In this document: positions 55,008 to 58,465 of the stretch, piece after piece
Layout: each line of letters opens with the position of its first letter
How positions within the stretch are numbered: the stretch's first letter is position 1
Assembly: GCA_025360715.1 (NCBI GenBank)
Contig: JANYBS010000114.1
Span: 1-64,000, forward strand
Reading direction: 5' to 3'
DNA: 64,000 nucleotides
From: Candidatus Eiseniibacteriota bacterium
Lineage (GTDB): Bacteria; Eisenbacteria; RBG-16-71-46
The notes under the pieces: model-generated
Database searches by the model: none
Told to the model about the DNA's origin: nothing
The model's input: the letters and a program-made list of their open reading frames with translations, nothing else
Position numbers and translations under genes: made by a program

Positions 55008-55933
55008 CCCAGCCTCAGCGCATCCTCGTCGTCGGTTCCGTCGCGCTGGATTCCATCCGCACGCCTTATGGCGAGGCGGAAGAGGCGCTCGGCGGTTCGG
55101 CTTCGTACTTCAGCTTCTCCGCGAGCCACTTCGCGCCGGTATCGGTGTGCGCGGTGGTGGGGGAAGACTTCCCGGCGGAGCATCGCGCGAAGTTCGAGGG
55201 CCGCGGTGTCGACCTTTCGGGGCTGGAGACCGCGGCCGGTCGGACGTTCCGCTGGCGCGGTGAGTACATGGCGGAGTTGGGGCACGCGCACACGCTCGAG
55301 ACGCAGTTGAACGTGTTCGCGGATTTCCATCCGAACGTGCGCGATGACCATCGCAAGGCGCCCTATGTGTTCCTCGCGAACATCGATCCGGACCTGCAGC
55401 TCGAGGTGCTCAGCCAGGTCAAGAAGCCTACCCTCACGCTGTCGGACACCATGAACTATTGGATCGCGCGCAAGCCCGACCGAGTGTTCGAGGTGCTGCG
55501 CCGCGTCGACGTGGCGCTGCTCAACGAAGAAGAGGCGCGCGCGCTGGCAGGCGAGACGCATCTGGCCAAGGCAGCCGAGAAGCTGCTCGAGCAGGGCGCG
55601 AACGCGGTCATCATCAAGAAGGGTGAGCATGGCGCGCTGTACCATTCGCGAGAAGAGCGTTTCATCACGCCGGCCTATCCGGTGACCGCGCTCACCGATC
55701 CGACCGGCGCCGGCGACTCGTTCGCGGGCGGGTTCATCGGCATGCTCGCGCGCTTCGGCCGTACCGACGGCGAGGCCCTACGTCAGGCGATGGCCTGCGG
55801 TACGGCCATGGCATCGCTGGCGATCGAGTCCTTCAGTCCTGCCCGTCTGATCGAGACCTCTCCGGAAGAGATCGATGACCGCGTCCGGGCGCTTCATGGC
55901 ATGGTTCACTACGACTTGTTCCCGATGTTCTGA
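55004..55933 (+). CDS. PfkB-family sugar/nucleoside kinase
   Basis: LVVGSVALDSIRTPYGEAEEALGGSASYFSFSAS; DPTGAGDSFAGGFIG. Confidence 0.9.
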   Translation: MTQPQRILVVGSVALDSIRTPYGEAEEALGGSASYFSFSASHFAPVSVCAVVGEDFPAEHRAKFEGRGVDLSGLETAAGRTFRWRGEYMAELGHAHTLETQLNVFADFHPNVRDDHRKAPYVFLANIDPDLQLEVLSQVKKPTLTLSDTMNYWIARKPDRVFEVLRRVDVALLNEEEARALAGETHLAKAAEKLLEQGANAVIIKKGEHGALYHSREERFITPAYPVTALTDPTGAGDSFAGGFIGMLARFGRTDGEALRQAMACGTAMASLAIESFSPARLIETSPEEIDDRVRALHGMVHYDLFPMF

Positions 55934-56025
55934 AGGCCCTTCGAAAGTCGCATGGTTCCAAAGGTGAGGCCTGTGTTAACCTCGCGATCCGTTCGACTCT
56001 TCCGAGGGGGAAGGGAGCACCGGCC

Positions 56026-56817
56026 ATGACAGCCACGATGACGCTTGCCACGAAGGCCGAGTCTGAGATCCGCAACCTCCGCGACATCGAGGGTGTGAGC
56101 GTTCGCGTGGATGGTGACGTGATCCGCGAGATCCACGTCGTCACCCGCAGCGACCGCAACCCAAAGCAGATCGTCCGCGACATCCAGACGATCCTGCGCG
56201 CCAAGGTGGGGGTCGCCATCGATCACCGTGTGGTTTCGGTCGCCCAGGCTCGCCATGACGATGCGCCGCCGCTCGCGCCGCCGTCTGCGCACGCCGCCGC
56301 CGACGCTACTGCCGCGCCTGCTCCCTCCGCGCGCGCCGCCGCGCCGGGACGCGAGAGCGCCGCGCATCTCGAGGAGGACGATCCGCTCGCCCGTGCTGAG
56401 CGCATCCGCTTCGAGGGAGTGAACCTGTTCGTCTCCGGGCCTCGCACGCAGGCTCAGGTGGAGCTTCGCTGGAAGGGCTTGCCGCGCATGGGCAGCGCTT
56501 CTGGTTTTGCTACTCGCGATGAGTCGCACCGGTTGATCGCCCAGGCCACGGCGTCGGCCGTCCAGGAGTTCCTCTCGGACCCGGTCGCGATCAATATCCA
56601 AGCCGCGGAGATCGTCCAGGTCGGTGGCCGCCGCCTGGCGGTCGTCTGCCTGACCCTGCTTGCGCACCGCAACGAGAAGGCGCTCACGGGCAGTTGCATC
56701 GTGGAACAGGATACGCCCCAAGCCGTGGTACTCGCTGCACTCGCCGCCTTGAATCGCGTGGTGGGCGGGATGCGCGTGAAGGAGCCCACGGAGTATGTTC
56801 TGCGGGCCGGACGCTGA
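56026..56817 (+). CDS. Uncharacterised protein, two-part architecture with Ala/Pro linker
   Basis: N-term IRNLRDIEGVSVRVDGDVIREIHVVTRSDRNPKQIVRDIQTILRAKVGVAIDHRVVSVAQ; C-term RLAVVCLTLLAHRNEKALTGSCIVEQDTPQAVVLAALAALNRV. Confidence 0.85.
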   Translation: MTATMTLATKAESEIRNLRDIEGVSVRVDGDVIREIHVVTRSDRNPKQIVRDIQTILRAKVGVAIDHRVVSVAQARHDDAPPLAPPSAHAAADATAAPAPSARAAAPGRESAAHLEEDDPLARAERIRFEGVNLFVSGPRTQAQVELRWKGLPRMGSASGFATRDESHRLIAQATASAVQEFLSDPVAINIQAAEIVQVGGRRLAVVCLTLLAHRNEKALTGSCIVEQDTPQAVVLAALAALNRVVGGMRVKEPTEYVLRAGR

Positions 56818-56876
56818 CGGCCACCTTCCACAAGCGAAAGCACCGCCGAGCCCAGCGGGCGAGGCCGCTGAAGTTT

Positions 56877-56910
56877 CGTATCTCCGACACCACCTCAAGA
56901 GGAGGATACG
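56877..56910 (+). promoter_or_regulatory. Hairpin with anti-SD-like loop upstream of micro-ORF
   Basis: CGTATCTCC(56877-56885)/GGAGGATACG(56901-56910) stem with one bulge; loop contains CCACCTC (56890-56896). Confidence 0.55.
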
Positions 56911-57003
56911 CCTAGCGAAGCGAAGTAGATCTGCGAAGCGGACCCGTCCACAGGCGCATCCCGCGCCCAGTGGAACTCCAGTATCTGAAGGAGGTGGGTC
57001 TGA

Positions 57004-57054
57004 ATGGATCTGCTCATCGAGATCATCGAGCTGTTCGGCAAGGCGGGCTGGTAA
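57004..57054 (+). CDS. Micro-ORF, 16 aa: MDLLIEIIELFGKAGW
   Basis: ATG...TAA preceded by AAGGAGGTG (56988-56996), full match to canonical anti-SD with 9-nt spacing from GGAGG; too short for the supplied ORF track. Confidence 0.6.
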   Translation: MDLLIEIIELFGKAGW

Positions 57055-57142
57055 GCCTTTGACCTGACGTTCACGTATCTCACTTCTGCGGTGGTGTCGG
57101 TCTCATCTTTCCGTCACCCCGGAGCCCCTGGCGCGAGAACCT

Positions 57143-58465
57143 GTGAGTCACCCGCACCACCATCGGCATCCGGTGCAGTTCCGGTCGTACTATCTGGCGG
57201 TCCTTGTGATCGCTGCGACGCTGATCGCACGCGCGTTGCCGCACGAGGTCATGCCGCACCCGTGGTTCGCCGCGGGCGCATTCCTGCTCTTGGTCATGAG
57301 CGAGCTGGCGCCAGTGGCGATGCCTGGTGGCGGTTACGTGTCGGCGAGCACGGTCTTCGACCTGCCATGTGTGCTCATCATCGGTCCGCTCTGGACGGCG
57401 CTGATCGACATCGCCGCCAACGTTCTCGTGCACGGCATGGTTCTGCGCAAGCCGCCGGTGCGTGTTCTGCACAACTCGGCCATCTTCACGATCGGGTACT
57501 TCGGCGCAGCATGGGCGTTCGAGACCGCCGGCGGCCGCATCGGTACGCTGATCTTCCCGCAGGACGGTCTGGCGCTGCTGGCGAGCGGCTTGGTGTATTT
57601 CGCCGTGAACTCGATCTGCGTCTCCACCGTTATCGGCCTCACGGCCGGGCCGAGCCCGTGGCGTATCTGGCAGCGCAACTTCCAGCAGGGCCTCATGCAT
57701 CACCTGTCGTTCATCGCCCTGGGCGCGCTGGTCGCGGTCGTGTACGTGACCGCTGGGCCGTGGGGGATCGCCTTGTTCGGGCTGCCCTTGCTCGTGGCGC
57801 GCTATTCGTTCAAGAGCCACCTCGAGCTCAAGAGCGACCTCAAGGACTTCGTGCGCGCGCTCACCGAGGTGCTCGAAGAGGTCGATCCCTACACGCGTCA
57901 TCACTCGGTGCGCGTCTCGGAATATTCCGTTCGCATCGCGCGGGGCATGGGACGGCCCGAGCGCGAGGTCGACGATATCGAGTATGCCGCGCTCGTGCAC
58001 GATCTTGGCAAGATCGGCCCGCAACACCAGCACATCCTGCAGAAGCCCGGGAGTCTCTCGCACGAGGAACAGCGCACGCTGCGCGCGCATCCGGCGGCCG
58101 GGGCCGAGATCGTGGCCAAGGTCCGCGCGTTGCGCCGCGCCGCCGAGATCGTGCGCTCGCACCACGAACGCCCCGACGGCCAGGGCTATCCGTTCGGCCT
58201 GCGCTCGGCAGACGTGCCGATCGGCGCGCGCATCCTGAACGTGGCCGACGCCTTCGACGCCATGACCAGCGACCGGCCTTACCGTCGCGCGCTTCCGCTC
58301 GATGCAGCCTTGCGCGAACTCGAGCGCGGCGCCGGCACGCAGTTCGATCGCGACGTCGTGCAGTGCATGCTGCGCATGCAGCGCTCCGGCGCGTTCCCGC
58401 TGATCCCGAGCCCGAGCAGTGAGGATCTGCAGCTGCTGCGGCTCAAGACCCGGGTGGGAGGCTGA
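57143..58465 (+). CDS. Membrane-anchored HD-GYP domain protein (putative c-di-GMP phosphodiesterase)
   Basis: multi-TM N-terminus; RHHSVRVSEYS...LVHDLGKIG...SHHERPDGQGYPFGL...ADAFDAMTSDRPYR. Confidence 0.92.
   Translation: MSHPHHHRHPVQFRSYYLAVLVIAATLIARALPHEVMPHPWFAAGAFLLLVMSELAPVAMPGGGYVSASTVFDLPCVLIIGPLWTALIDIAANVLVHGMVLRKPPVRVLHNSAIFTIGYFGAAWAFETAGGRIGTLIFPQDGLALLASGLVYFAVNSICVSTVIGLTAGPSPWRIWQRNFQQGLMHHLSFIALGALVAVVYVTAGPWGIALFGLPLLVARYSFKSHLELKSDLKDFVRALTEVLEEVDPYTRHHSVRVSEYSVRIARGMGRPEREVDDIEYAALVHDLGKIGPQHQHILQKPGSLSHEEQRTLRAHPAAGAEIVAKVRALRRAAEIVRSHHERPDGQGYPFGLRSADVPIGARILNVADAFDAMTSDRPYRRALPLDAALRELERGAGTQFDRDVVQCMLRMQRSGAFPLIPSPSSEDLQLLRLKTRVGG

Follow-up and report, generated by a model that had tools for sequence, protein, structure and literature searches.

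A conserved micropeptide gene between a 56026-type gene and a MASE9-like HD-GYP gene in Candidatus Eisenbacteria, and its possible part in signal sensing

Introduction

Between a gene of no assigned family and the gene of a membrane HD-GYP protein, the genome considered here carries an open reading frame of only 16 codons, and the question that this locus raises is whether so short a frame is a gene at all and, if so, what its product does beside a predicted c-di-GMP phosphodiesterase. The whole stretch of DNA that was analysed, hereafter the window, is 64 kb long; the genome to which it belongs measures 4.29 Mb and has its relatives among Candidatus Eisenbacteria. A first-pass annotation, made from the letters of the window, had placed the micro-ORF at 57004-57054 of the forward strand behind a strong Shine-Dalgarno (SD) sequence. 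The frame is present exactly as it was written and its product is MDLLIEIIELFGKAGW, while the SD, AAGGAGGTG, occurs as a single copy in the window when both strands are searched and also forms the 3' strand of a stem in a conserved RNA. Under a strict rule the window contains two SD-led ORFs of 12-30 codons, of which this one is the only hydrophobic one. The features of the locus are collected in Table 1. A GC-rich 27-bp stretch at 56843-56869, 3' of the 56026 gene, has a 96% match on another contig of the same genome (C222:1537-1563).

Table 1. Features of the micropeptide locus (positions in the window)
Feature	Position	Strand	Basis
Soluble protein, 263 aa, without assigned family (56026-type protein)	56026..56817	+	AlphaFold pLDDT 86; Foldseek
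Upstream copy of the AGCGAAGCG element of the RNA leader	56913..56922	+	9-mer AGCG[AGT]AGCG
Conserved structured RNA leader: GCGAAGCGGA, anti-SD strand GGACCC.., internal hairpin, SD strand	56931..57002	+	Covariance models, covariation, fold
Shine-Dalgarno AAGGAGGTG, 3' arm of the RNA stem	56988..56996	+	Only copy in the window
Micropeptide gene, product MDLLIEIIELFGKAGW	57004..57054	+	Conservation across loci and codon tests
C-terminal tail GKAGW, proposed ligand/recognition element	57037..57051	+	Codon-position mismatches, presence on lipoproteins, within-genome matching
Membrane HD-GYP protein, 440 aa, predicted c-di-GMP phosphodiesterase	57143..58465	+	Pfam HD_5 4.7e-36; Foldseek 9rbz, 4mcw
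7-TM N-terminal sensor domain, MASE9-like, predicted ECF S-component fold, proposed tail receptor	57170..57847	+	Pfam, AlphaFold, Foldseek

The micro-ORF evolves as a coding gene

Related genomes with the same gene neighborhood had been set beforehand as the test on which the micro-ORF could fail. Among the Eisenbacteria, a conserved, SD-led micro-ORF was found at this position in 23 of the 23 HD-GYP loci with a 56026-type gene in front, and upstream of HD-GYP in 0 of the 7 loci without that gene, all of which belong to family f5. A tie of the micropeptide to one or both of its neighbors had been proposed by the first-pass annotation, and within the phylum it is seen for both: the peptide is present where the 56026-type and HD-GYP genes adjoin and absent where the former is missing.

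The frame also bears the marks of selection on its product. In 17 related genomes of family f1, mismatches in the last 12 codons amount to 0.40, 0.16 and 0.51 at codon positions 1, 2 and 3, i.e., conservation is highest at the second position and lowest at the third, and the flanks of the ORF in the same sequences are random, with 0.69-0.74 at each position. The pN/pS ratio over the last 14 codons is 0.58, a value equalled by 1 of 300 column shuffles, and is 0.79 and 3.2 in the shifted frames. The suggested comparison of synonymous with non-synonymous change therefore reveals conservation at the amino-acid level. What is conserved is not the helix, whose residues vary among hydrophobic and acidic ones, but the G[KR]AGW tail at the C-terminus; the tail is almost fixed (single exceptions on peptides are GRASW, TKAGW and GKGGW), with mismatches of 0.14, 0.14 and 0.46 by position in its GKAGW codons. 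A chance ORF is ruled out by the codon pattern and the presence across the phylum. Judged by these patterns of substitution, the micro-ORF is almost certainly a real conserved gene that evolves as a protein. It had not been recognised as a member of a described family, and neither Pfam nor NCBIfam gave a match in a scan that covered its relatives of at least 20 aa.

Distribution across phyla

A DNA pattern consisting of an SD and G[KR]AGW followed by a stop finds micro-ORFs throughout the Eisenbacteria. In 338 genomes outside the phylum the G[KR]AGW pattern gave chance-like matches only, and the exact tail is therefore regarded as phylum-specific, with different tails in other phyla. Peptides outside the Eisenbacteria were traced through the 56026-type and HD-GYP proteins rather than through the tail, and in this way the same receptor was found to be preceded by equivalent peptides of 20-40 aa (16 to 40 aa overall) in Clostridia, in Actinobacteria and in further phyla. 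Clostridial peptides are of the MKKAK..ALTSLxSLxLAGGAxFxWR type and 25-30 aa long, those of Acidimicrobiia and other Actinobacteria lie upstream of a divergently placed HD-GYP gene, and in another phylum each of five genomes has a single GGRNDW-ended peptide, located at the HD-GYP locus in those inspected. An equivalent peptide was also found in single genomes from several other families, and the tail variants across groups include GKAGW, GKGGW, GGRNDW, GGHAWW and GGAGWNWR. In the other phyla the peptide is found at 8 of 8 HD-GYP-linked 56026 homologs versus about 0 of 32 unlinked ones (Fisher about 1e-8, calculated from hand-compiled counts and ignoring shared ancestry). In one actinobacterium the peptide VKIRLLGLAGALAALFYTAGAYFRW and the RNA element precede a MASE9 histidine kinase and not an HD-GYP gene, which is why the peptide appears, from gene order, to follow the sensor domain rather than the output. 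Peptide and sensor domain are linked across phyla and, in this one case, across output domains.

Tailed micro-ORFs were also seen in other settings. In L021 (1199-1321) a micropeptide carries its tail in three tandem copies (...GGHAWWANGGHAWWMSGGHAWW), and no GGHAWW was found elsewhere in that genome. Family f5 genomes (L213-L217, L226, L227) have GKAGW micro-ORFs, mostly as tandem pairs, between a histidine kinase gene and lon, distant from HD-GYP and without the RNA leader. In families f4, f6, f9 and f11 (L218-L224), GRAGW micro-ORFs in up to three tandem copies (L219) lie near genes for sigma-54 activators, TPR proteins, Ser/Thr kinases or ZU5-like lipoproteins, and in L222 the RNA leader model matches immediately 5' of the micro-ORF.

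The 56026-type gene

The upstream neighbor encodes a small N-terminal alpha/beta domain, a disordered linker and a C-terminal domain like the regulatory domain of LeuA and citramalate synthase. In Foldseek, this C-terminal half matches the regulatory domain with which LeuA binds amino acids (1sr9, E=6e-6; also LiCMS, 3f6h), and the protein has no family in Pfam or NCBIfam. The gene is kept beside the micro-ORF and HD-GYP gene across phyla, and in loci that have neither HD-GYP nor peptide it still keeps its place between pfkB and purM. The loci L379-L383 show what is probably the common order in other families, with the MASE9 kinase followed by a second gene (M23-like peptidase), polyprenyl synthetase, pfkB, the 56026-type gene and purM; compared with it, the micropeptide and HD-GYP genes look like an insert between the 56026-type gene and purM. 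The 56026-type protein may possibly read the leader RNA or a metabolite.

A structured RNA leader at the ribosome-binding site

From the 56026-type gene to the micro-ORF, the leader is composed of AGCG[AG]AGCGGA, an SD-complementary strand, an internal hairpin, CAGAGT or CAGAAT, and the SD. The 9-mer AGCG[AGT]AGCG lies 58-130 nt 5' of the peptide start in nearly all loci, and the stem covers the ribosome-binding site of the micro-ORF, which it could hide. The structure has 13 pairs, which in an alignment of 20 clostridial sequences can form in 97.3% of the cells versus 32-48% in slid controls; 8 of these pairs have changed on both sides, and 0 of 500 shuffles attain any of the measures. The Eisenbacteria alignment gives weaker support because the stem scarcely varies there. 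Two covariance models were used, R1 from clostridial sequences only and R2 from Eisenbacteria with the window sequence left out. In other loci, 353 kb in total and from several phyla, R1 has 28 matches at E<=5; every one lies directly 5' of these peptides, and the window leader is among them with 11.7 bits, whereas 463 kb of control loci yield five weak matches, i.e., chance level, one of which (L211) lies just 3' of a 56026 homolog at a contig end. R2 finds the window leader at E=4.9e-8 and also several clostridial leaders. The window leader folds with its SD region paired at an energy that is not exceptional for its composition (z=-1.2), and the fold of one clostridial leader is exceptional (z=-3.9). 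In all, there is little doubt that the RNA leader is real. Like translational riboswitches, it combines conserved unpaired motifs with a covarying stem that includes the SD; unlike the known SD-hiding RNAs, it matches no Rfam family at gathering score and precedes a micropeptide. CsrA-type binding was not adopted as the input to the RNA, its loops being GCGGA and not ANGGA.

A short ORF with a strong SD and a structured RNA directly 5' of a regulatory gene is also what would be expected of a cis-acting leader peptide, the translation of which, set by the RNA structure, controls the HD-GYP gene while the product itself is inert, and conserved C-terminal residues beside the stop are reminiscent of arrest peptides. 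However, the tail is found on lipoproteins (see below) and on micro-ORFs that are not upstream of HD-GYP, it is present three times over in L021, and the peptides differ in length from 16 to 40 aa. Moreover, in contrast to attenuation leader peptides, no terminator-like site was found on the + strand by a simple scan of 55900-57300, which includes the interval from micro-ORF to HD-GYP. We consider such a leader peptide improbable.

The HD-GYP protein and its sensor domain

The HD-GYP protein of the window keeps the HD pair and the HHExxDGxGYP motif. Its membrane region coincides with that of Pfam MASE9 (PF20972), for which Pfam gives a domain name only; the window protein scores 23.4 bits (E 6.6e-5), just under the cut-off of 24.3, and its homologs in L043 (41.3 bits) and L350 (31.5 bits) exceed it. 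To our knowledge, MASE9 has no known ligand. AlphaFold predicts a 7-TM domain (pLDDT 87). In Foldseek, the catalytic half places HD-GYP structures first, and the next best matches are the ECF S-components RibU, FolT and ThiT and CbiM/NikM, with TM-scores by target of about 0.6 for RibU, FolT, ThiT and CbiM; the RibU match reaches 0.66 by target at prob 1.0, with an E of only 0.02-0.5 and a predicted model as the query. On this modelled structure, the membrane domain is assigned the ECF S-component fold. The fold is common to transporters and sensor kinases and has its pocket near the outer face (Partipilo and Slotboom, PMC11109136), for which reason the tail is proposed to enter that pocket. 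Among the homologs, one HD-GYP protein is fused to a C-terminal PP2C phosphatase domain (L374:2388-4667).

The tail is shared with lipoproteins

When G[KR]AGW followed by a stop was searched in the Eisenbacteria with the SD requirement dropped, a family of lipoproteins of about 170-320 aa emerged, with a signal peptide, a lipobox Cys and the ending ...HFSxY..G[KR]AGW. Tails match within most genomes. They are all K in f5 genomes and all R in f4, f6, f9 and f11; G006, the one GKGGW genome, has GKGGW on the peptide and on two lipoproteins; and G020 has FYRAGW(GPGGP) on the peptide and TYRAGW on the lipoprotein. G010 has both K and R forms, and the window's own genome is an exception, with GKAGW on the peptide and GRAGW on its one tailed lipoprotein (L270, ending HFSAYRATGGRAGW). 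A few tails are not strictly C-terminal (GRSGWGD, GKAGWKQQP..), and the tailed lipoproteins of L322 and L323 continue past it (...HFSRYVVGGKAGWKQQP..), so that the tail need not be strictly terminal. Nor are tailed lipoproteins universal, since GGRNDW occurs once per genome in the second phylum, at the HD-GYP locus in those inspected.

The MASE9-like domain also stands alone as a membrane protein of ~240 aa, and 11 of the 14 such proteins in the phylum adjoin a tailed lipoprotein, three having no tailed neighbor. Because of this adjacency and of the matching of tails within genomes, the tail is tied to the membrane domain of the receptor. The MASE9 kinases that were inspected in the phylum have no tailed lipoprotein beside them, and many tailed lipoproteins do not adjoin a MASE9 gene. 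In a hand-compiled tally that ignores shared ancestry and is driven by few clades, MASE9 and tails have a common phylogenetic profile, the genomes without a MASE9-like match (mainly family f10) having zero verified tails. Genomes of family f5 keep MASE9-HD-GYP with no peptide in front, so that a pairing there would need to operate in trans. A different 25-aa micropeptide, MTRLPKKVLFRIAAAAATLIGLVSF, was seen at the start of a stand-alone MASE9-like gene with a tailed lipoprotein downstream (L338:1420-1497), and a relative of it has the same position in L337 (2196-2273).

That peptides and lipoproteins bear the same tail, in variants specific to lineages, could also mean that G[KR]AGW marks C-termini for sorting or processing by an export or protease machinery unconnected with MASE9. 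This reading is very unlikely: tail genes adjoin MASE9-like genes in two distinct architectures, the two share their phylogenetic profile, and residues follow the W in some tails.

A peptide partner for the sensor domain

A functional partnership of the tail with the sensor domain is probable. As to its nature, we lean, by a little, towards an RNA-controlled peptide whose tail is an outward ligand, tethered or free, or a tethered subunit of the S-component-fold receptor, and sets HD-GYP activity. In this model, the GCGGA-flanked strand of the leader would pair with the SD region and hide the start site, and the RNA would thus repress until some signal opens it. The product would be a small exported or membrane-inserted peptide, the tail of which (GKAGW here) would serve as extracytoplasmic ligand or tethered subunit of the adjacent MASE9-like domain, and how active the attached HD-GYP domain is as a c-di-GMP phosphodiesterase would depend on whether the pocket is occupied. 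Export, an outside tail, direct binding, the effect on phosphodiesterase activity and whatever the RNA senses are what we infer from genes and predicted structures. A weak point of the ligand model is that the 16-mer of the window's family, acidic and amphipathic, is not a standard export substrate and has no obvious features of a Sec substrate.

Alternatively, the peptide may not be a signal but a small subunit built permanently into the MASE9-type sensor in the membrane, i.e., a stabiliser or assembly factor, as KdpF and CbiN are in their complexes. This role would suit a single-helix peptide of 16-30 aa whose gene adjoins that of a polytopic membrane protein, the fold resembles those of ECF S-components and CbiM, which have small partners, and the linkage is kept across different outputs. 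However, it is the tail that is fixed and not the helix, the tail is also carried by soluble lipoproteins, and tandem micro-ORFs and the triple GGHAWW tail suit a ligand better than a 1:1 subunit, which leaves a permanent subunit unlikely.

Within the ligand model, the peptide could be a diffusible pheromone cut from a precursor, with quorum sensing via the HD-GYP protein. Its build resembles that of short hydrophobic pheromones, and the tandem copies and the GGHAWW triple repeat agree with this. ZU5 domains act as autopeptidases in bacteria (PMC3482391), and the near-invariant HFSxY before the lipoprotein tails is as in self-cleaving ZU5 domains, with H193, F194 and S195 (HF-S, the predicted cleavage site) at least 90% conserved in A3. 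Nevertheless, the Pfam ZU5 match of the tailed lipoproteins is weak and below threshold (14.5 bits at best versus a cut-off of 21; E about 0.05), cleavage and release would be hypothetical steps, and a tethered ligand accounts for the same data; this sub-case is conceivable, and a minority view among us.

Relation to known systems and concluding remarks

HD-GYP domains, the S-component fold, short signaling peptides and SD-hiding RNAs are each known already. In the SHP/ComS systems of Streptococcus, a tiny ORF with a strong SD and a hydrophobic stretch, and with a conserved C-terminal end that often contains Trp, adjoins the gene of its receptor. The micro-ORF of the window is likewise a short hydrophobic peptide gene with a strong SD, but it is adjoined by a 56026-type and an HD-GYP gene and not by an Rgg/ComR (HTH-TPR) gene, its proposed receptor is a membrane S-component-fold domain on HD-GYP, and the RNA leader and lipoprotein carriers have, as far as is generally known, no counterpart there. 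In contrast to AgrD, with its conserved Cys/Ser and an AgrB gene nearby, the Eisenbacteria peptides have no Cys and no AgrB-type gene lies beside the micro-ORF of the window. The S-component fold is known for binding vitamins and pyruvate, and we know of no genetically encoded peptide partner described for it. S-component-fold receptors (5TMR/LytS-type histidine kinases) and ECF S-components have, as here, a seven-helix membrane domain with an outward pocket and varied outputs (PMC11109136), although in this case the MASE9 sequence match is weak and the output is HD-GYP. The tailed lipoproteins share the HFSxY, within a predicted domain, with the ZU5 autopeptidases of bacterial surface proteins, but match them weakly in sequence and are without toxin or adhesin parts.

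Neither the micropeptide family nor the RNA nor the tailed lipoproteins, nor the way in which all three go together with MASE9, turned up in the databases or literature searched, and the literature search gave no publication on a pairing of HD-GYP with a micropeptide. Whether these elements amount to a new class of peptide signaling is a point on which we are evenly divided. Such a class would use a five-residue C-terminal signal with its own SD-hiding RNA, and S-component-fold receptors would pass it on to c-di-GMP breakdown or to a kinase. Lipoproteins that partner receptor-only proteins would display the signal at their ends as well, and signals and receptors would have diversified together in several phyla. 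The leader RNA is in itself a new candidate cis-regulatory RNA spanning phyla. If the model is true, an uncultured phylum as well as many Clostridia and Actinobacteria would possess a peptide-receptor system absent from the databases searched, an orphan family of c-di-GMP sensors would gain a natural ligand, and the S-component fold would be able to read peptides.
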